Part shown: positions 242 through 62,171 of the stretch, piece after piece
Layout of the letters: each line of letters begins with the position of its first letter
Position numbering within the stretch: the first letter of the stretch is position 1
From: Pseudoalteromonas sp. R3
GTDB taxonomy: Bacteria; Pseudomonadota; Gammaproteobacteria; Enterobacterales; Alteromonadaceae
Reading direction: 5' to 3'
Assembly (NCBI RefSeq): GCF_004014715.1
Contig: NZ_CP034835.1
Span: forward strand, 930,001-994,000
DNA length: 64,000 bases
Position numbers and translations under genes: made by a program
The notes under the pieces: model-generated
The model's input: only the letters and a program-made list of their open reading frames with translations
Told to the model about the DNA's origin: nothing
Database searches by the model: none

Positions 242-3200
242 ATGAAACTCAAGCATCTAGTTGCCGCTATAGCGGCTGTAGCTGCCCCATTGGCGGCTGC
301 ATATCAAACTCAGGACACGCGGCTACTGCGTTTCCCTGATATTCATCAGGACAAAGTCACTTTTGTATATGGCGGTGATATCTACATTGCGGATACCAAG
401 TCGGGTAACAGCACCCGCCTGACCGACCATGTTGGCTTTGAGACCTTCCCCAAATTTTCACCAGATGGAAAACGCATTGCGTTTGCGGCCGAGTACAATG
501 GCAGCCGACAGATTTATGTGATCGATGCCGATGGCTCTAATCTGAAGCAGCTTACTTACTACAATGATGTGGGCCCAATGCCGCCACGAGGTGGGTTTGA
601 TTACCGAGTGTTTGACTGGACACCGGATGGCAAGCATATTGTGTTTCGTGCCAACCGCACGCCCTGGGGTAAACGTATGGGTCGTCCTTACATGATCCCT
701 GCTGATGGTGGACTAGAGCAACCGCTGGCCATTCCAGAAAGTGGTGGTGGTATGCTGTCACCAGATGGTAAGCAGTTTGTCTATACGCCGATTGACCGCG
801 AGTTCAGAACCTGGAAGCGCAGCCGGGGCGGTCGTGCACAGGATGTCTGGGTGTATGATTTAGAAAACAACACCTCAAAACAGCTGACCGAACACAGAGC
901 AACTGATCAGCAGCCAACCTGGGTGAACGACAGCATATACTTCGTATCTGATCGTGACTATACCCTAAACCTGTATAAATACCGTGAAGGGAAAGCACCG
1001 GTTAAGATGACCAACCACAGTGAGTATGATGTACTGTGGCCATCTGCCGGGCCAGATGCCATCGTGTATGAAAATGGCGGCTATTTGTATCGCTTTGATG
1101 AAGCAACTAAAACCACAGAAAAGCTGACCATCAATGTGCCCGGGGTACGCAAGTACGCTATGCCTTACACAAAAAATGTCAGCAAGTTCATTGACTCAAT
1201 GGACGTTTCTCACGATGGTAAACGTGCCCTATTCACGGCGCGTGGTGAAGTATTCTCAGTCCCGGTTGAGCAGGGCCCGACGCGCAACTTGAGTATGACG
1301 GCTGAAGGCCGTGAAATTGCTGCGAGCTGGTCACCGAATGGCCGTTATATTGCGTATATGAGTGACGCAACGGGTGAGTATGAGATTTACCTGAAAGACC
1401 GCGCTAATAACAATGAAGTTAAGCAACTTACCAGCAACGGGTCCATCTGGCGTTTTGACCCTATCTGGTCGGCCGACAGCTCAAAGCTGCTATTTGCTGA
1501 TAAGAACCACACTATGTGGTGGCTGGATGTAAGCTCAGGTGAGCTGCATAAGATCGATACCGGCAAGTACGACGATGATGGCATCACCCAGTATACCTGG
1601 TCTCCAAACAGCGAAGATCTGATCTTTGTAAAGAACAATGCCAATCGCTTTGCTTCTTTGTGGCACTACAATACCCAAAGCAAAGTGCTGAGTCGTCTGA
1701 CTGATGATATGACCAATGAACAGAACCCGGCTTTCTCACCGGATGGTCAGTATCTGTATTTCACATCGGAGCGCGATTTTAACCTGACCTTCAGCGCTTA
1801 TGAGTTTGCTTATTTGTATAACAATGCAACACGCCTTTATGCCGTTGCAGTGAATGACAAGGTTTCATCTCTGACACAGTTTAACAGCGATGAAGCGGCA
1901 ATTGTCAGCGAAGAGAAAGACGATAAGAGCAAAGACAGTACAACTGAAAATCAGCTCCAGGTAGATGGCTTTATGTCACGGGTTGTAGCATTGCCTGCGA
2001 AAGCGGGTGACTATGGAGACTTAAATGGCGTCAAAGACGGCGTACTGGCGCTGTCTGAAGGCACATTGAAGCTGATCCCAAATAAACAAGATGGCAAAGT
2101 GCAAACGGTTGCCAAGGGCGTACAGGCCTATAAGGTGGCGGCAGGTGGTGAGCACCTGATTGTGCGTGCAGGCGGCAAATACAGTGTGATCAAGCCTAAA
2201 GCCAAGCAGGACCTGAAAGCAACGCAACTTGATCTGGGTAACATGATACTGAAGATTGACCCTAAAGTTGAATGGCAACAAATGTATGTCGAAGGCTGGC
2301 GAACGCTCAGAGACTGGTTCTATGATGAAAACCACCATGGTCAGGACTGGGATGCTATCCTGAAGCGCTATCAGCCGATGGCTGATGCCGTGGCACACCG
2401 CAATGATCTGGACTATGTACTGAGCGAAATTGCAGGTGAGATCAACGCGGGTCACATCTATGTTCAGTCAGGTGATGAGCCTAAAGCGAAACGCAAGAAG
2501 CATGGTCTGCTCGGCGCCCAGATCAGTGCCCACAGCTCAGGCTTTGTGCGCATCGAAAAAATCTATCAGGGTGAAAACTGGCATGAAGAGTTCCGCTCTC
2601 CATTGGGCGAGCCTGGCGTTAATGCCAGTAAGGGTGACTACATAGTGTCGGTTAATGGCCGTGCGGTAAACACCGTGAGCAACTTCTACGAACTGCTGGA
2701 AAATACTCAGGGTACTCAGGTTGAACTACGCCTCAACGACACCCCAAGCCTGGATGGCGCCTGGAAGGTAACGGTGAAGCCAAGCGCCAGTGAAGGTGGT
2801 TTGCGTTATCTGGAGTGGGTTCACTCTCGTATGGACTATGTGGACAAGCTATCGGGTGGTCGCATTGGCTACATTCACCTGCCAAATACGCTGTTTGAGG
2901 GTAACCGTGCGATGTTTAAGCACTTTATGCCACAAACAACCAAAGATGCTCTGATCATTGATGACCGTTACAATGGCGGTGGCTTCATTCCTGAACACAT
3001 GATCACCTGGCTGGCACGTAAGCCTCTGAACTACTGGAAGCGTCGTGGTGTTGAGCCGACGAAAACGCCTCAGTTTGCTCACGATGGTCCTAAGGCGATG
3101 TTGATCAATGGCTACTCTAGTTCTGGTGGTGATGCGCTACCTTATTACTTCCGTCAGGCAGGGCTTGGTAAGCTGATCGGTACGCGTACCTGGGGTGGTT

Positions 3201-3466
3201 TGATCGGTATTTCGGGTAATCCTCGTTTGGTTGACGGCGGTCAGGTGATTGCCGCGACTTTCCGTATTCTGGACAATGATGGCAACTGGATCATTGAAGA
3301 TGAAGGTGTCAGCCCGGATATCGAAGTGATTGATCGTCCTGAGCTGATCCACGCGGGTAAAGATCCATCAGTGGAGCGTGCTGTTGAGGAGTTGCTTAAA
3401 GAGATGAAAGCAAACCCGAAGAAGCAGCTCACGGTGCCACCAGCACCAACTGAGTTTGGTCGATAA
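242..3466 (+). CDS. secreted tricorn-like S41 family peptidase
   Basis: A 1074-residue exported peptidase related to the archaeal tricorn protease. The N-terminus (MKLKHL then an Ala-rich stretch to about residue 20) is a signal peptide. Residues about 25-640 carry repeated WD40-like/PD40 motifs (DGKRIAF, DGKHIVF, NGRYIAYMS, DGQYLYFTS) expected to form beta-propellers. Next come the tricorn core region with AGHIY (candidate catalytic His), a PDZ-like segment (about 770-860), and an S41 core with GYSSSGGD near residue 961 holding the expected nucleophilic Ser. ATG 242 is preferred over GTG 233 because GAGG at 234-237 is correctly spaced from it. The family degrades peptides; here probably in the periplasm. 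A strong terminator follows. Confidence 0.9.
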   Translation: MKLKHLVAAIAAVAAPLAAAYQTQDTRLLRFPDIHQDKVTFVYGGDIYIADTKSGNSTRLTDHVGFETFPKFSPDGKRIAFAAEYNGSRQIYVIDADGSNLKQLTYYNDVGPMPPRGGFDYRVFDWTPDGKHIVFRANRTPWGKRMGRPYMIPADGGLEQPLAIPESGGGMLSPDGKQFVYTPIDREFRTWKRSRGGRAQDVWVYDLENNTSKQLTEHRATDQQPTWVNDSIYFVSDRDYTLNLYKYREGKAPVKMTNHSEYDVLWPSAGPDAIVYENGGYLYRFDEATKTTEKLTINVPGVRKYAMPYTKNVSKFIDSMDVSHDGKRALFTARGEVFSVPVEQGPTRNLSMTAEGREIAASWSPNGRYIAYMSDATGEYEIYLKDRANNNEVKQLTSNGSIWRFDPIWSADSSKLLFADKNHTMWWLDVSSGELHKIDTGKYDDDGITQYTWSPNSEDLIFVKNNANRFASLWHYNTQSKVLSRLTDDMTNEQNPAFSPDGQYLYFTSERDFNLTFSAYEFAYLYNNATRLYAVAVNDKVSSLTQFNSDEAAIVSEEKDDKSKDSTTENQLQVDGFMSRVVALPAKAGDYGDLNGVKDGVLALSEGTLKLIPNKQDGKVQTVAKGVQAYKVAAGGEHLIVRAGGKYSVIKPKAKQDLKATQLDLGNMILKIDPKVEWQQMYVEGWRTLRDWFYDENHHGQDWDAILKRYQPMADAVAHRNDLDYVLSEIAGEINAGHIYVQSGDEPKAKRKKHGLLGAQISAHSSGFVRIEKIYQGENWHEEFRSPLGEPGVNASKGDYIVSVNGRAVNTVSNFYELLENTQGTQVELRLNDTPSLDGAWKVTVKPSASEGGLRYLEWVHSRMDYVDKLSGGRIGYIHLPNTLFEGNRAMFKHFMPQTTKDALIIDDRYNGGGFIPEHMITWLARKPLNYWKRRGVEPTKTPQFAHDGPKAMLINGYSSSGGDALPYYFRQAGLGKLIGTRTWGGLIGISGNPRLVDGGQVIAATFRILDNDGNWIIEDEGVSPDIEVIDRPELIHAGKDPSVERAVEELLKEMKANPKKQLTVPPAPTEFGR

Positions 3467-16910: not shown

Positions 16911-16932
16911 ATCGTATATTTAGTTCATCAAT

Positions 16933-16974
16933 GGAAAAGAAACCTGAATCTGTTAGAAAACAGCCAATTCTGCA
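16933..16974 (-). pseudogene. highly decayed tRNA-Leu 5'-half remnant
   Basis: Keeps recognisable GAATTGG (D-arm) and GATTCAGGTTTC (anticodon region, CAG type), separated by a short hairpin CTGTT-TTCT-AACAG. The 3' half is missing. It lies 22 bases 5' of the intact tRNA-Leu at 16826-16910. Confidence 0.6.
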
Positions 16975-17024
16975 TTGAGTATTTAATTCTTTAAAAGAAG
17001 AAAAGTTTCAAGATAAGAGTTAGA

Positions 17025-17109
17025 TGGTGCGGAAAGAGAGACTTGAACTCTCACAACCGAAGTTACAGAAACCTGAATCCTGCGCGTCTACCAATTCCGC
17101 CACTTCCGC
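17025..17109 (-). tRNA. tRNA-Leu (CAG)
   Basis: 85 bases with CCA; anticodon loop TTCAGGT (anticodon CAG). It differs from the neighbouring tRNA-Leu(UAG) at only seven positions, and the stem changes are compensated or wobble pairs, so it should fold. Confidence 0.9.
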
Positions 17110-17131
17110 ATTAACTATCTATCTTTACAAT

Positions 17132-17188
17132 GAAAAGAAACCTGAATCCTGCGTCTTATTCGACAACACCCAATTCCGCTACTTCCGC
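17132..17188 (-). pseudogene. tRNA-Leu(CAG)-derived 5'-half remnant
   Basis: In transcript direction it starts GCGGAAGTAGCGGAATTGG, then has an altered D-loop insert and GCAGGATTCAGGTTTC, after which homology stops. The 3' half and CCA are absent. It lies 22 bases 5' of tRNA-Leu(CAG). Confidence 0.75.
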
Positions 17189-17225
17189 ATCGTATATCTA
17201 ACTAAATTTTCATCTCGTGATGAGA

Positions 17226-17300
17226 TGGCTGGAGTACCAGGATTTGAACCTGGGAATGGCGGGATCAAAACCCGCTGCCTTACCGCTTGGCGATACTCCA
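17226..17300 (-). tRNA. tRNA-Gln (UUG)
   Basis: 75 bases with CCA. Acceptor TGGAGTA/TACTCCA, anticodon stem GCGGG/CCCGC around TTTTGAT (anticodon TTG), T-arm CCAGG-TTCAAAT-CCTGG. Confidence 0.95.
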
Positions 17301-17417
17301 GCAATAATTCAAATCTTGAATCCAGATAAATCAAAGAGATAATATCCTTCTTCTTAACGCTTGATATTACAGAAATAAAAAGCGTAATCAAGAGTTTTAG
17401 TTCTAACTTGAAGAACA

Positions 17418-17502
<85 letters not shown>

Positions 17503-17514
17503 ATGTTTTTTCGC

Positions 17515-17578
17515 TTTGATATTGGAACCTAAATCCAGCGTCTAATTCAAGACATCTGGCCAATTCCGCTACTTCCGC
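17515..17578 (-). pseudogene. tRNA-Leu(UAG) 5'-half remnant
   Basis: In transcript direction it begins GCGGAAGTAGCGGAATTGG, has an insert in the D-loop that folds as a hairpin (CCAG...GTCT-TGAATT-AGAC...CTGG), keeps GGATTTAGGTTCC and then loses homology. It lies 12 bases 5' of the intact tRNA-Leu at 17418-17502. Confidence 0.8.
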
Positions 17579-17605
17579 ATCAAATTGTATCTCTCAAAGA
17601 AGAGA

Positions 17606-17680
17606 TGGCTGGAGTACCAGGATTTGAACCTGGGAATGGCGGGATCAAAACCCGCTGCCTTACCGCTTGGCGATACTCCA
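17606..17680 (-). tRNA. tRNA-Gln (UUG)
   Basis: Identical in sequence to the tRNA-Gln at 17226-17300; CCA encoded. Confidence 0.95.
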
Positions 17681-17722
17681 ACAAAGTTATTCAAAGTTGT
17701 TTCAGTTCAAACTTTAAGAACA

Positions 17723-17807
<85 letters not shown>

Positions 17808-17826
17808 ATTTTTATCTCATAAGAGA

Positions 17827-17901
17827 TGGCTGGAGTACCAGGATTTGAACCTGGGAATGGCGGGATCAAAACCCGCTGCCTTACCGCTTGGCGATACTCC
17901 A
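17827..17901 (-). tRNA. tRNA-Gln (UUG)
   Basis: Identical copy of tRNA-Gln(UUG), 19 bases 5' of the preceding tRNA-Leu in the operon. Confidence 0.95.
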
Positions 17902-17937
17902 ACGAAAAGTTGATTATTTTAGTTCTTATCGAGAACA

Positions 17938-18022
<85 letters not shown>

Positions 18023-18026
18023 AACG

Positions 18027-18103
18027 TGGTGGCTATGCCCTGATTTGAACAGGGGACCCCATCATTATGAGTGATGTGCTCTAACCAGCTGAGCTACATA
18101 GCC
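18027..18103 (-). tRNA. tRNA-Met (CAU), elongator type
   Basis: 77 bases with CCA. Acceptor GGCTATG/CATAGCC, anticodon stem CATCA/TGATG around CTCATAA (anticodon CAT). It resembles E. coli elongator tRNA-Met and not the initiator. Confidence 0.93.
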
Positions 18104-18105
18104 AT

Positions 18106-18180
18106 TGGCTGGAGTACCAGGATTTGAACCTGGGAATGGCGGGATCAAAACCCGCTGCCTTACCGCTTGGCGATACTCCA
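18106..18180 (-). tRNA. tRNA-Gln (UUG)
   Basis: Identical copy of tRNA-Gln(UUG), two bases 5' of tRNA-Met. Confidence 0.95.
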
Positions 18181-18219
18181 ACGAAACTAAATCTGTTTTA
18201 GTTCTGACTTAAAAGAACA

Positions 18220-18304
<85 letters not shown>

Positions 18305-18316
18305 ACATCTTTTGCT

Positions 18317-18379
18317 TCTATATTGGAACATAAATCCAGCGTCTATTTCTAGACATCTGGCCAATTCCGCCACTTCCGC
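18317..18379 (-). pseudogene. tRNA-Leu(UAG) 5'-half remnant
   Basis: Transcript direction: GCGGAAGTGGCGGAATTGG is intact, followed by a D-loop insert that folds as CCAG...GTCTA-GAAA-TAGAC...CTGG, then GGATTTATGTTCC and loss of homology. It lies 12 bases 5' of tRNA-Leu 18220-18304, the same arrangement as the remnant at 17515. Confidence 0.8.
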
Positions 18380-56738: not shown

Positions 56739-58373
56739 TCAGGGTCTGAAATCCAGATTCATTTCTTCTAGTTGAGCCTGTAGTTTGTCAAATCGCTCTT
56801 GCTGTTCAGGCTCAAGCTGAGCTGCGCTCAGTGTTTTGTAGCACTTCGCCGCTAGGTTTGAGTTAAATGTAGCGGCTTTCTTTCCTGTTGCATCTGCAAG
56901 GCATTGCAGCAGATTCAGTGCAATACTGGCGTTTTTAGGCATCACCCTAAATGCCTGCGTAAAGGCTTCCAGTGCGACGTCAAGTTGTCCTTTCTGGAAT
57001 TGTTTTACGGCATGATTATTGAGCTCTTTAGGGCCCATTGTGATATGACGACGTTCATCTTGCTGTTGCTGAAGCAGGTGCATAAAAGTGGGGTCGTCTT
57101 GCTGTTGATGACGCTCGCAGTGTGTGATTATCTGGCCAAACAGTGCCTCTGCTTTGTGCTGAAACCCCAGTTCATGGAACGCCTTAGCTTTGTCCAACGC
57201 TGCATCAACAGAGCGGATCTGAGGTTCATCCTCCAACTGCTCCATCAGTTGTCGTGCTTTGGTATGTTCATCTTTGAGGTAATGTAATCGAGCATTGAGC
57301 ACGTCAATCTGAGTCTGGTTATTGGCATTGGGAAACTGCTTTTTTAGATCGCTCAGGTATTGCTGGGTCTGCCTGGTCAGGCGGGTGATCTGATCGTGTT
57401 GATCTGTGCTGAGTGCGAAATCAATCCCGGCACGGGCGGCATTCAAATAAACTTCAGGGCTATCGTGCATCGAAAAACGAGCAAAATTGGCTATTTCTTT
57501 TTGTGCGTTGTAACTGCACTCATAATCATGGTTGATGCGTGCGACTGTACTGAGTGACTTTTGCCTTTCAATATTGCGTGGCGCAATCTGTGAGGCCTGT
57601 ACTAGCGACGCTTGTGCCTCCTCAAATTGGTTAAGCTTAAGCTCCAGACGAGACAATAAATCCAAAGCAGCCAGGCGAGTCTCGCTTTTTTCGATCAGGG
57701 ATTTCAGCATTTTCTGCGCCAGCATGTCTTCGTTATTTGCAATTAAGGTTTCCACAAGGCCGAGCTTAGCCCAGGTAAACTTTTGTAGCTCGAGCATGGA
57801 GCGGTAGAACTGCTTGGCTTCGCTATATTGTTTAAGCTTTAACAGTATTTCACCTTTGAGTTTAAGCAATATCGGGCTGTAAGCGTGCTCACCGCTTTCA
57901 AGCTCTGAGTTAATAAGTTTAAGTGCCTTAGAGTAGTTTTCGTCGTCAATCAGATTGTAGAGCGTTTTAAGGCTACGTTTACGCTTTAAAACACGCTCGA
58001 TGCGTGCTTTGAGCTCTTTAATACTGAAAGGCTTTACCAGGAAGTCATCAGGTTGCAATTCAACAATACTGTGCACCAGTTCAGGGCTGGTTTCGGCTGA
58101 GGTAAAAATAAACCCGGTACTTTGGCGTATCAGGCGCTTTTTAAGTAGCTCTTCGTAAAGCTGATAACCATTTTGACGCTTGCTCAGGTCAAACGAGCAG
58201 ATGATCAAATCGAATTTATGATGGATACAGCTTTCCTTTGCCAGTTGGGCATTTTCGGCAAACTGAACGTTTTTATAAGCCAACTGGTCCAGCGACTGTT
58301 TAATGTAGCTCAGCGCCAGTTGCTGTTCTTCCACGATCAAAATTTTTGCATTTACAAAGGGTTGAACAGACAT
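56739..58373 (-). CDS. receiver-domain protein with TPR repeats, pseudo-receiver
   Basis: A 544-residue protein. The receiver-like domain spans about 9-125, with ILIVEEQQ at the acidic pair, KPFS as the late Lys and DLIICSFDLSKRQNG where the phosphoacceptor should be. Aligning to D-L-x-L-L-D puts Ser60 in place of Asp, with Asp62 nearby, so normal phosphorylation is doubtful. Residues about 135-520 form TPR-like helical repeats (YSKALKLINSELESGEH, YSEAKQFYRSMLELQ, GQLDVALEAFTQAFRVMP). Such proteins act as scaffolds in signalling; the partner is unknown. It converges with msrB and precedes the tRNA-Val array, whose transcription runs towards it. Confidence 0.85.
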   Translation of the reverse strand: MSVQPFVNAKILIVEEQQLALSYIKQSLDQLAYKNVQFAENAQLAKESCIHHKFDLIICSFDLSKRQNGYQLYEELLKKRLIRQSTGFIFTSAETSPELVHSIVELQPDDFLVKPFSIKELKARIERVLKRKRSLKTLYNLIDDENYSKALKLINSELESGEHAYSPILLKLKGEILLKLKQYSEAKQFYRSMLELQKFTWAKLGLVETLIANNEDMLAQKMLKSLIEKSETRLAALDLLSRLELKLNQFEEAQASLVQASQIAPRNIERQKSLSTVARINHDYECSYNAQKEIANFARFSMHDSPEVYLNAARAGIDFALSTDQHDQITRLTRQTQQYLSDLKKQFPNANNQTQIDVLNARLHYLKDEHTKARQLMEQLEDEPQIRSVDAALDKAKAFHELGFQHKAEALFGQIITHCERHQQQDDPTFMHLLQQQQDERRHITMGPKELNNHAVKQFQKGQLDVALEAFTQAFRVMPKNASIALNLLQCLADATGKKAATFNSNLAAKCYKTLSAAQLEPEQQERFDKLQAQLEEMNLDFRP

Positions 58374-58448
58374 AGAGTAAAGGGCAAGGAATAAACTCGG
58401 AATGCTTTTAGTCTAGTCGTTTATCTTTTCTTTTGAAACATAAGGATT

Positions 58449-58489
58449 AAAAAGCTTGGTAAGAATACAGAGAAAGTAGGGGACCAGGC
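58449..58489 (-). terminator. possible terminator of the tRNA-Val operon
   Basis: On the minus strand, GCCTGGT (58483-58489) can pair with ACCAAGC (58454-58460, one mismatch) around a 22-base loop, then TTTTT (58449-58453). It lies just past the last partial 132-bp repeat. Weak by stem length. Confidence 0.35.
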
Positions 58490-58500
58490 ATTGTTTTGGG

Positions 58501-59108
58501 TGAGCGCGATGCCGCATCGACCAAAACACGGATGATAGAGCGAAAAATAAAAAAGTGTGAGTGATTGTGGTCTTTTTTAAGTGATGGTGGGTTGTACTGG
58601 ACTTACACCAGTGGCCCTCGCCTTGGTAAGAATGAGCGCGATGCCGCATCGATCAAAACACGGATGATAGAGCGAAAAATAAAAAAGTGTGAGTGATTGT
58701 GGTCTTTTTTAAGTGATGGTGGGTTGTACTGGACTTACACCTGTGGCCCTCGCCTTGGTAAGAATGAGCGCGATGCCGCATCGATCAAAACACGGATGAT
58801 AGAGCGAAAAATAAAAAAGTGTGAGTGATTGTGGTCTTTTTTAAGTGATGGTGGGTTGTACTGGACTTACACCAGTGACCCTCGCCTTGGTAAGAGTGAG
58901 CGCGATGCCGCATCGACCAAACCACGGATGATAGAGCGAAAAATAAAAAAGTGTGAGTGATTGTGGTCTTTTTTAAGTGATGGTGGGTTGTACTGGACTT
59001 GAACCAGTGACCCTCGCCTTGGTAAGAATGAGCGCGATGCCGCATCGATCAAAACACGAATGATAGAGCGAAAAATAAAAAAGTGTGAGTGATTGTGGTC
59101 TTTTTTAA
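58501..59108 (-). repeat. 132-bp tandem repeat carrying tRNA-Val 3' halves
   Basis: Four full units (58581-58712, 58713-58844, 58845-58976, 58977-59108) and a partial unit (58501-58580) with a constant 132-base period. In transcript direction each unit holds a hairpin block (GATGCGGCATC then GCGCTCATTCTTACC), then tRNA-Val sequence from the anticodon to the CCA end, then a spacer with an A-run and a T-run. The tRNA-like parts are at 58585-58656, 58717-58788, 58849-58920 and 58981-59052. The unit next to the intact tRNA-Val (58977) keeps a perfect T-arm; the others carry ACTTACACC changes that break it, so decay increases away from the intact gene. Confidence 0.9.
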
Positions 59109-59112
59109 GTGA

Positions 59113-59188
59113 TGGTGGGTTGTACTGGACTTGAACCAGTGACCCTCGCCTTGTAAGGGCGATGCTCTCCCAACTGAGCTAACAACCC
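59113..59188 (-). tRNA. tRNA-Val (UAC)
   Basis: 76 bases with CCA. Acceptor GGGTTGT/ACAACCC, anticodon stem TCGCC/GGCGA around CTTACAA (anticodon TAC), T-arm ACTGG-TTCAAGT-CCAGT. Last intact gene of the array, directly upstream of the tandem repeat. Confidence 0.95.
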
Positions 59189-59222: not shown

Positions 59223-59298
59223 TGGTGGGTTGTACTGGACTTGAACCAGTGACCCTCGCCTTGTAAGGGCGATGCTCTCCCAACTGAGCTAACAACCC
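59223..59298 (-). tRNA. tRNA-Val (UAC)
   Basis: Identical copy of tRNA-Val(UAC). The 34-base spacer to the next gene has no decayed copy. Confidence 0.95.
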
Positions 59299-59328
59299 AG
59301 AGTATTTTTTGGCAATTAGTTTTTAAGA

Positions 59329-59400
59329 TGGTGGGTTGTACTGACTTTAATTCAGAAACCTTGCCTTGGTAGGAATGAGCGCGATGCTGCATCGACCAAG
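59329..59400 (-). pseudogene. decayed tRNA-Val copy
   Basis: Keeps the CCA end, acceptor 3' strand ACAACCC and part of the T-arm and anticodon region. The 5' half is replaced by the CTTGGTCGATGCAGCATCG block followed by GCGCTCATTCCTACC. It lies 13 bases 3' of the tRNA-Val at 59414. Confidence 0.85.
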
Positions 59401-59413
59401 TCCACCAAATTAA

Positions 59414-59489
59414 TGGTGGGTTGTACTGGACTTGAACCAGTGACCCTCGCCTTGTAAGGGCGATGCTCTCCCAACTGAGCTAACAACCC
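59414..59489 (-). tRNA. tRNA-Val (UAC)
   Basis: Identical copy of tRNA-Val(UAC) with encoded CCA. Confidence 0.95.
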
Positions 59490-59513
59490 ATCTTAAAATT
59501 TTGTCTCTAGTTA

Positions 59514-59585
59514 TGGTGGGTTGTACTGACCTGAATCAGCTCCCTCGCCTTGGTAAGAATGAGCGCGATGCTGCATCGACCAAGT
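59514..59585 (-). pseudogene. decayed tRNA-Val copy
   Basis: Same layout as the copy at 59329, with a shortened T-arm (GCTGATTCAGGTCAG) that no longer fits tRNA, and the conserved ACTTGGTCGATGCAGCATCG block. Lies 12 bases 3' of tRNA-Val 59598. Confidence 0.85.
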
Positions 59586-59597
59586 TCACCAAATTAA

Positions 59598-59673
59598 TGG
59601 TGGGTTGTACTGGACTTGAACCAGTGACCCTCGCCTTGTAAGGGCGATGCTCTCCCAACTGAGCTAACAACCC
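59598..59673 (-). tRNA. tRNA-Val (UAC)
   Basis: Identical copy of tRNA-Val(UAC) with encoded CCA. Confidence 0.95.
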
Positions 59674-59737
59674 ATAACTATTCTGACTTTTGCGTATTGA
59701 GCCATAATCTTTTGTTCTATTATAGACAATCAAATTA

Positions 59738-59810
59738 TGGTGGGTTGTACTGACTTTAATTCAGTAACCCTTGCCTTGGTAAGAATGAGCGCGATGCTGC
59801 ATCGACCAAG
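59738..59810 (-). pseudogene. decayed tRNA-Val copy
   Basis: Same layout as the copy at 59329; the T-arm is altered (ACTGAATTAAAGTCAGT) and the 5' block is unchanged. Lies 12 bases 3' of tRNA-Val 59823. Confidence 0.85.
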
Positions 59811-59822
59811 TTCACCAAATTA

Positions 59823-59898
59823 TGGTGGGTTGTACTGGACTTGAACCAGTGACCCTCGCCTTGTAAGGGCGATGCTCTCCCAACTGAGCTAACAACCC
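59823..59898 (-). tRNA. tRNA-Val (UAC)
   Basis: Identical copy of tRNA-Val(UAC) with encoded CCA. Confidence 0.95.
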
Positions 59899-59920
59899 AA
59901 TACGCTGTTTCAAATGTGAA

Positions 59921-59980
59921 TGTCTATACTGACCTTCCCCCAAATCTTGGTGAAAACTAAAACGATGCTACATCGACCAA
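59921..59980 (-). pseudogene. most decayed tRNA-Val copy
   Basis: Only CTTGGTCGATGTAGCATCG and short pieces (CCAAGAT, GTCAGTATAGACA) remain recognisable; the CCA end is lost. The hairpin block outlasts the tRNA part. Lies about 13 bases 3' of tRNA-Val 59994. Confidence 0.65.
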
Positions 59981-59993
59981 GTCACCAAAATTA

Positions 59994-60069
59994 TGGTGGG
60001 TTGTACTGGACTTGAACCAGTGACCCTCGCCTTGTAAGGGCGATGCTCTCCCAACTGAGCTAACAACCC
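59994..60069 (-). tRNA. tRNA-Val (UAC)
   Basis: Identical copy of tRNA-Val(UAC); first gene of the operon after the promoter. Confidence 0.95.
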
Positions 60070-60113: not shown

Positions 60114-60141
60114 ATTATATGTTTCCTTTCAAAGGAGTCAA
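60114..60141 (-). promoter_or_regulatory. promoter of the tRNA-Val operon
   Basis: On the minus strand: -35 TTGACT (60136-60141), 16-base spacer, perfect -10 TATAAT (60114-60119), then a GC-rich discriminator (AGCGCCCC) as in stringently controlled stable-RNA promoters. Confidence 0.88.
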
Positions 60142-61430: not shown

Positions 61431-61522
61431 AAAGATTTTGTTAAAGGAAGTTCGGTCTCGCTGGCTCGACTTTCACGCTAACAAAAAATTATTGAAGCGG
61501 TGCTTCAATAAGCAAATTTTTT
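61431..61522 (+). other. structured insert in tRNA-Glu spacer, copy 1
   Basis: About 92 bases found in only two of the spacers. TTTTGTTA and TAACAAAA flank a structured core. A perfect 10-bp hairpin TTATTGAAGC-GGT-GCTTCAATAA (61489-61511) follows, then five bases and TTTTTT directly before the next tRNA. This looks like an internal, weak intrinsic terminator or small RNA end. Confidence 0.6.
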
Positions 61523-61659: not shown

Positions 61660-61751
61660 AAAGATTTTGTTAAAGGAAGTTCGGTCTCGCTGGCTCGACT
61701 TTCACGCTAACAAAAAATTATTGAAGCGGTGCTTCAATAAGCAAATTTTTT
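61660..61751 (+). other. structured insert in tRNA-Glu spacer, copy 2
   Basis: Apparently identical to the insert at 61431-61522, offset by 229 bases, with the same terminator-like hairpin at 61718-61740 and the T-run touching the next tRNA. The whole 229-base unit seems to have been duplicated or homogenised. Confidence 0.6.
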
Positions 61752-61827: not shown

Positions 61828-61896
61828 CTTACTTTCAGTAAGTACGAAACTCGTATGGTAAGAGTATAAATAGCCAGTCCTAGTGACACATTCAGT

Positions 61897-61972
61897 GTCC
61901 CCTTCGTCTAGAGGCCTAGGACACCGCCCTTTCACGGCGGTAACAGGGGTTCGAATCCCCTAGGGGACGCCA
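61897..61972 (+). tRNA. tRNA-Glu (UUC)
   Basis: Identical copy and last gene of the array. No clear terminator follows within the next 100 bases. Confidence 0.96.
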
Positions 61973-62171
61973 CTCTTCTTAGTAATACTATTCCCTCAGT
62001 AACACTCCTTTTTTCTCCGATTATCTCTATCAATCTTAAATATCAACATTTAAATGAATTTTTTCATATATTTCATTTACTTAAATTGTTTGATTTAAAA
62101 CAAAGTTAGGGCTTTATTAACAAGCTCACCTACGAAAAATGGGTTAGTATCGCGTTTTTTAGGTGAGTATC

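Follow-up and report, generated by a model that had tools for sequence, protein, structure and literature searches.

A tRNA-Val operon and its tandem tail

The window, by which we mean the whole stretch of 64,000 nucleotides analysed, comes from a Pseudoalteromonas genome of 5.82 Mb in two contigs. Its minus strand carries six identical tRNA-Val(TAC) genes, each called by ARAGORN and scoring 71.8 bits against the Rfam tRNA model, upstream of a tandem array and a co-directional protein-coding gene (Table 1). The stretch with the putative promoter also lies upstream of the first tRNA-Val gene in the related loci L063-L067.

Table 1. Features of the tRNA-Val locus, in window positions and in the order of the operon
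Feature	Position	Strand	Remarks
Sigma-70-like promoter of the tRNA-Val operon (putative)	60114-60141	-	TTGACT-16-TATAAT; 11/12 consensus matches; assigned by consensus match only
tRNA-Val(TAC), six genes	59994-60069, 59823-59898, 59598-59673, 59414-59489, 59223-59298, 59113-59188	-	ARAGORN, Rfam
Decayed inter-tRNA element	59902-59989	-	hairpin kept, T arm lost
Inter-tRNA element	59737-59820	-	short 5' block with hairpin, then degenerate tRNA-Val 3' half
Inter-tRNA element	59513-59594	-	spacer empty in L063 and L064
Inter-tRNA element	59328-59410	-	
Tail unit 1	58981-59112	-	C>G bubble 59044-59148, maximum 25.6%
Tail unit 2	58849-58980	-	T loop TGTAAG; C>G bubble 58912-59026, maximum 26.9%
Tail unit 3	58717-58848	-	C>G bubble 58774-58886, maximum 24.4%
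Tail unit 4	58585-58716	-	C>G bubble 58642-58762, maximum 24.4%
Partial unit 5 and tail end	58446-58584	-	linker and hairpin block, to 58501; last letters ACCAAGCTTTTTAATCC
Downstream gene, co-directional	56739-58373	-	544 aa; response-regulator receiver domain (Pfam PF00072) and TPR repeats (TPR families)

Tandem Repeats Finder (TRF) reported a repeat at 58501-59157 with a period of 132, 5.0 copies and 97% matches. Read in the sense of the operon, the minus strand, the array at 58501-59112 resolves into four full 132-bp units and one partial unit, as a preliminary description of this DNA had stated. A unit starts directly after the CCA of the preceding tRNA or unit (TCACTTAAAAAAGACCACAATCACTCACAC...); every unit has a block with a CGATGC/GCATCG hairpin, and the full units then continue into a tRNA-Val 3' half ending in CCA. 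In unit 1, a C-rich linker and the 5' arm of the hairpin occupy 59112-59041, and the tRNA-Val-derived part occupies 59040-58981, in which the T arm is intact and the tRNA sequence runs without change from GGCGAGGGTC to CCA. The T loop of units 2-4 reads GGTGTAAG (ACTTACACC on the plus strand), so the earlier statement that the tRNA-adjacent unit has a perfect T arm and the distal units share T-loop changes was also confirmed. That each full unit holds tRNA-Val sequence from anticodon to CCA held as well, but the tRNA-derived extent proved longer than claimed: the hairpin block, previously called unrelated to the tRNA, appears to be partly derived from tRNA-Val, with GCATCGC(GCTCATT)CTTACCAAGGCGAGGG of the unit aligning by eye, apart from a short insertion, with GCATCGCCCTTACAAGGCGAGGG of the gene. 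The 5' arm of this hairpin, CGATGC, matches GCATCG of the tRNA in reverse complement (by eye), a pattern such as a fold-back copying error would make. With the 5' acceptor and D regions missing, the units are tRNA pseudogenes, and ARAGORN calls no tRNA there.

The array lies within the limits first given for it, 58501-59112, but the feature as a whole does not, since the same block also occurs between the tRNA genes. Shorter elements of the unit type occupy three of the five inter-tRNA-Val spaces, and a decayed one lies in a fourth. Between the third and fourth genes, L063 and L064 have nothing but a spacer of 24 and 34 nt, respectively; at that place the window and L065-L067 have an 84-85-nt element ending in CCA, followed by much the same spacer sequence, and CCA is thus the boundary between presence and absence. 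A hairpin joining the CCA end to the following spacer (CACCA...TGGTG, stem of at least 6) occurred at a frequency of 0.318 among 176 distinct gaps from the window and its relatives (0.013 in shuffled sequence) and would hide the CCA end in the precursor; in tails, the frequency was 0.031 of 65, against 0.003 when shuffled. Repetitive tRNA clusters with pseudogene-like spacers are known from Photobacterium, and there too tRNA-derived remnants lie between the genes of a repetitive tRNA operon.

Remnants were also seen in neighbouring arrays of the window. The tRNA-Leu/Gln/Met array at 16911-18376 (minus strand) contains four pseudo-tRNA-Leu 5' halves just before real tRNA-Leu genes (by eye), with a fold-back hairpin at the position of the D arm, for example GTCTA-GAAA-TAGAC, a mirror image of the Val 3' halves. 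In the tRNA-Glu array, two spacers (61433-61520 and 61662-61750, plus strand) are enlarged by about 80 bp of additional sequence, in which pieces resembling tRNA-Glu and a TTGAAGCGGTGCTTCAA hairpin can be made out; related-looking blocks are present in L125 and L127 (all by eye).

Variation among relatives and state of the tRNA-derived parts

Relatives were retrieved through the downstream gene, taking the best 80 of 107 loci. Among the 81 loci tabulated (the window and these 80), tRNA-Val preceded the response-regulator/TPR gene on the same strand in 69; the 12 without tRNA-Val on the gene's strand before the gene were dropped. The genomes are related to one another, so that counts over the 69 are not independent, and 7 of the 69 tails exceed 900 nt and may contain other sequence. 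Locus L102 (P. sp. H105) has no tRNA-Val on the gene's strand before the gene despite a long flank, and its neighbouring array (L026, L054) seems to run the opposite way.

The closest loci among the best 80 of 107 belong to the Pseudoalteromonas rubra group, with downstream proteins 97-99% identical. The comparison of unit number between strains that the preliminary description had proposed revealed differences at this same locus: L063-L067 have one, six, one, two and one full tail units, plus a remnant (by eye). Both unit number and inter-tRNA elements differ among close strains, with the junctions at CCA. The preliminary description had said that its reading would be refuted if close relatives lost the repeat and did not conserve the hairpin block. 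The outcome bears this out in part: unit number is variable in the P. rubra group, though a unit with the block survives in each of the five strains, and no tail element was found in P. luteoviolacea H33-S, HI1 and others. In L064:1797-2753, two unit subtypes alternate with spacings of 129 and 132, as if dimers had been duplicated.

To score tails uniformly, we used a strict 3'-half pattern (at most 6 edits), which recovered all four window units and gave no match in shuffled spacers and tails (58,957 nt) or in shuffled tails alone (31,993 nt); a looser 9-edit pattern gave 45 matches in 31,993 nt of shuffled tails. By the strict pattern, at least one tail element is present in 40 of the 69 loci and at least two in 23. 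The 29 genomes without one include P. luteoviolacea H33-S, HI1, NCIMB 1942 and DSM 6061, P. aurantia 208, two P. phenolica and P1-9, and some pattern-negative genomes hold more decayed elements by eye (P. flavipulchra, HM-SA03, P. fuliginea, T1lg48 and Rheinheimera EpRS3). Unit length and linker differ between clades, and units in relatives are spaced 84-197 nt apart (larger spacings that skip units or N left out), and frequently this distance is not divisible by 3. By BLAST of their first 60 nt, 39 element-bearing tails fell into 26 groups, with even the P. rubra group split; linkers seem to diverge too fast for separate origin and divergence to be told apart.

Outside the group, 3'-end copies were rare. 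Seven loci from other families of the order (L036-L042) yielded them in L038 only, and a class-wide tRNA-Val search (187 genomes, 30 loci including the window) found copies in one of the 29 other loci, L151, where they adjoin tRNA-Asp/Ile; by these scans, therefore, such copies are not a general feature.

In the window, L066, P. caenipelagi, P. distincta and one P. shioyasakiensis, the T arm is perfect in the first unit and imperfect in the last, as crossing-over or conversion with the adjacent tRNA would leave it. Decay of the T arm away from the last tRNA did not hold as a rule: an unbiased scan (6 edits) of 23 genomes placed the first unit nearer to the tRNA sequence than the last in 8 genomes and farther in 4, with 11 ties (sign test 0.39), so that the general gradient expected from such recombination is not significant.

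Stem pairing was then compared with shuffled sequence over 127 distinct elements (of 158). The T stem paired at 0.836 against 0.837, the anticodon stem at 0.849 against 0.853, and compensatory changes were at chance in both (3 against a mean of 1.9, and 1 against 2.7); a looser set of 161 distinct elements gave the same pairing outcome. Covariation in these stems accordingly lends no support to a structured RNA. An RNase P substrate with a tRNA-like 5' acceptor strand was rejected for unit 1, the unit examined, in which the best 7-mer paired at 5/7 with wobble, a value reached in 32.5% of shuffles. Single-sequence folds were modest (z -1.4 to -3.2). Given this pairing at the shuffled level, the lack of an acceptor strand beyond chance in unit 1 and the modest folds, the tRNA-derived part looks like decaying sequence. 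The CGATGC/GCATCG hairpin core, for its part, recurs in several clades. In an alignment of 25 sequences picked by eye from a noisy motif listing, the same hairpin is surrounded by the stem CTTGGT/ACCAAG in the rubra clade and by GTTAAGGA/TCCTTAAC in T1lg/G011. A stem kept with different letters in two clades may hint at a structured RNA; because the clades pair in shifted registers, these stems cannot be counted as paired columns. Pairing of AAAAAAG with CTTTTTT in the linker is weak (-2.3 kcal/mol) and by eye is not kept in L063-L067.

Two further candidates were discarded. A mobile or dispersed element was rejected because a 228-nt unit query gave 12 matches in its own genome, all at the tRNA-Val locus. 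A period of 132 = 3 x 44 leaves minus-strand reading frames open (e.g. 58785-59045), but a repeat protein was rejected because the spacing in relatives is often not a multiple of 3.

Base composition and candidate termination signals in tRNA tails

A passage of PMC9160355 describes rut sites as C-rich, G-poor, unstructured C>G bubbles, and the genome encodes a Rho RNA-binding domain. We scored such bubbles in 78-nt windows. Five large C>G bubbles appear in the tail, each unit accounting for one; their maximal C-minus-G is 24-27% and their areas are 1441-3451, compared with an area of at most 615 in the tRNA part of the operon. The fifth, at partial unit 5 (58339-58630), overlaps the beginning of the downstream gene. 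When the whole 64 kb was scored on both strands, 2932 bubbles were counted, of which only 15 reach 24%. These comprise the five tail units and the tail of the adjacent tRNA-Glu array; of the other nine, seven lie wholly or mostly antisense to ORFs (at least 150 aa), one lies in sense inside an ORF and one is partly intergenic. The bubble that ends the tRNA-Glu array (61885-62071, plus strand) is the sole plus-strand bubble of at least 24%.

The bias extends to the relatives. In the first 60 nt past the last tRNA-Val, mean C/(C+G) is 0.73, with values above 0.5 in 64 of 68 tails. The corresponding value is 0.58 in the Ala-Val intergenic control, which itself exceeds 0.5 in 45/45 and is surpassed by the tail in 39/45, and 0.54 after the stop of the downstream gene, surpassed by the tail in 59/68; after the last tRNA-Glu it is 0.64, exceeding 0.5 in 14/19. 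Tail linkers also have a higher C/(C+G) than inter-tRNA gaps in 48 of 51 genomes, a comparison in which removal of elements is incomplete, a difficulty that the first-60-nt comparison avoids; this difference argues against a mutational bias of the transcribed strand. Moreover, 53 of the 69 tails had sufficient length and no N, and in every one of these the longest C>G bubble was larger in sense than in antisense. An excess of C over G also prevails in most tails that lack tRNA halves, and G-free microsatellites were seen in some tails (e.g. P. gelatinilytica, L132). Base composition is thus what is conserved in the tails. This is our strongest result; it also fits a general requirement for an open 3' tail, and composition alone, fitting Rho loading and an open substrate for RNase E or exonucleases alike, cannot separate the two.

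Intrinsic terminators were sought as G+C-rich hairpins followed by a T run. With the last 60 nt before the gene left out, none of the 69 Val tails contains such a site, and none was found in the window between 60200 and 58301, the minus-strand tail included. Repeats of similar make in two other places do carry them. The 141-bp repeat of L038, from another family of the order, runs to 5.6 copies; a tRNA-Val 3' half forms part of its unit, and the array contains six tandem GGCCTGCA...TGCAGGCC-T5 hairpins. In L144, a tRNA-Ser pair of the window's own genome is followed by three CCGCC/GGCGG-type hairpins with T7 tails, each then followed by a copy of the tRNA-Ser 3' end, the first clear and the other two decayed (by eye). 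These two sets, like the scan of the 69 tails, rest on a purpose-written rule; another terminator scan lists neither set, presumably since it looks for the longest stem and so counts the T run as part of an A-T stem. L144:1501-1634 (G000:C2:90092-90225, minus strand) is also the genome's only match to the Rfam RtT model, a marginal one at 45.3 bits against a cut-off of 45, and the clear tRNA-Ser copy sits inside it.

Possible role and origin of the repeats

The preliminary description had likened the array to the E. coli tyrT operon, and direct reading of E. coli K-12 upheld the parallel. There, 178-bp units follow tyrV, each ending in a copy of the tRNA-Tyr 3' end; in both operons the tandem units come straight after the last tRNA, in the same orientation, with a tRNA 3' end and CCA, and in E. 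coli, too, the CCA is followed at once by a linker rich in C and poor in G (19 C and 7 G in the first 60 nt). The first 16 nt, TCACTTTCAAAAGTCC against TCACTTAAAAAAGACC, agree at 13/16 (shuffled-linker P 5e-5, but this is the best of 68 tails, whose mean is 4.6). Termination at tyrT is Rho-dependent. The E. coli operon differs in that it concerns tRNA-Tyr, has longer units with a shorter tRNA piece (about 19-21 nt), contains a G+C-rich middle block that brings the whole unit to just 0.54-0.56 C/(C+G), and is annotated with the rttR RNA and the tpr ORF. A passage of PMC4986893 reports a function for the rttR RNA. The Rfam RtT RNA (RF00391) is likewise an RNA from tRNA operons with a tRNA 3' end; the window gives no match at the gathering score (45 bits), and membership of that family was rejected.

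We tentatively favour the reading that the repeats are tandem transcription-termination cassettes, of the Rho type at this locus, with the tRNA half as a recombination handle, and rate it slightly below an even chance. Transcription would run on from the last tRNA through the tail, and each 132-nt unit would offer one C-rich, G-poor, weakly folded stretch on the nascent RNA as a rut-like loading site for Rho, closed by the copy of the tRNA-Val 3' half. Several units in a row would benefit the cell by providing fail-safe termination ahead of the co-directional response-regulator gene. In the main, the tRNA 3' halves would be handles for recombination and what it leaves behind: through crossing-over or gene conversion between units and tRNA ends, units would be added or removed and, in the window and a few other genomes, refreshed.

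Several observations count for this reading: one bubble per unit, the sense-strand bias and the lack of intrinsic-like sites in the 69 tails point to the Rho type, and the intrinsic hairpins of the L038 and L144 repeats, together with the variation in unit number at CCA junctions, fit a cassette. The bubbles resemble Rho-dependent terminators in the composition given in PMC9160355; they differ in that there is one bubble per unit with a tRNA half between, and the termination itself is putative, read from sequence. Other observations weigh against it. L063 has only a single full unit, so a long array is no requirement; the Ala-Val control is itself consistently C>G; and C>G bubbles predict termination poorly, rut properties, as a passage of PMC9160355 puts it, not setting the strength of strong terminators and predicting it for weaker ones only.

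Neutral recombination debris is a real alternative, though we lean against it. On this account, the tRNA copies of the array decay into functionless remnants that unequal crossing-over multiplies or deletes; the C>G bias belongs to the 3' trailer, and the tRNA halves ride along. Stem pairing at the shuffled level, the gain and loss of units and inter-tRNA elements between close strains at the CCA end, the scatter of the element-bearing tails over many linker groups and the absence of a strict-pattern element from 29 of the 69 genomes all agree with it. It does not readily accommodate tail linkers that are consistently C>G when the inter-tRNA spacers of the same array are not, nor the well-formed terminator hairpins in the L038 and L144 repeats.

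The tail could instead be a processing substrate: RNase E would cut in the open linker and exonucleases would trim it, so that the tail serves 3' maturation of the last tRNA and not termination. The A/U-rich, weakly folded linkers and the rarity in tails of the CCA-anchored hairpin typical of the inter-tRNA spacers are consistent with this role, but it leaves both the depletion of G with C retained and the intrinsic terminators of the L038 and L144 units unexplained, and we regard it as improbable. Hardly more credible, and marginally less so, is that CCA-ended tRNA fragments, decoys or a small RNA of the rtT kind arise from the units, the reading of the preliminary description, which invoked RNase P: the units are probably co-transcribed, tyrT releases an RNA from a similar place and the hairpin core recurs in several clades, but it fared poorly against the T and anticodon stems without covariation, a unit 1 without a 5' acceptor strand beyond chance, unit lengths and linkers that vary between clades, unit numbers that vary between strains, the genomes lacking any strict-pattern element and the lack of an RtT match.

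Changes in tRNA copy number by tandem duplication have been described for P. fluorescens SBW25; in the passages of PMC7661048 concerned, large duplications create whole tRNA genes, whereas the small units of the Val tails hold just a half. Our search of open-licence papers returned, among the matches listed, no paper on these Pseudoalteromonas repeats. Repeats of tRNA ends behind a tRNA operon are already known from E. coli tyrT; new within the literature searched are their recurrence in Pseudoalteromonas tRNA-Val operons, the single bubble per unit, the exchange of rut-like for intrinsic signals between operons and lineages, and the negative covariation result.

A broader proposal extends the termination-cassette reading. 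The tRNA operons of these gammaproteobacteria might build self-renewing multi-terminator tails, in which a tRNA 3' end and the termination signal that follows it, rut-like or intrinsic, form one cassette and the tRNA half provides constant homology for gain and loss; a single evolutionary process, adjusting readthrough from very strong operons, would then have given rise separately to the tails of E. coli tyrT, the Pseudoalteromonas Val operons, L038 and the tRNA-Ser pair. We consider this unlikely. The close strains of the P. rubra group, which differ in unit number at the same locus and before the same downstream gene, are natural variants in which these ideas can be tested. To the old question of what purpose tRNA-end repeats behind tRNA operons serve, the present findings suggest an answer: the linker may do the work, with the tRNA piece as its handle.
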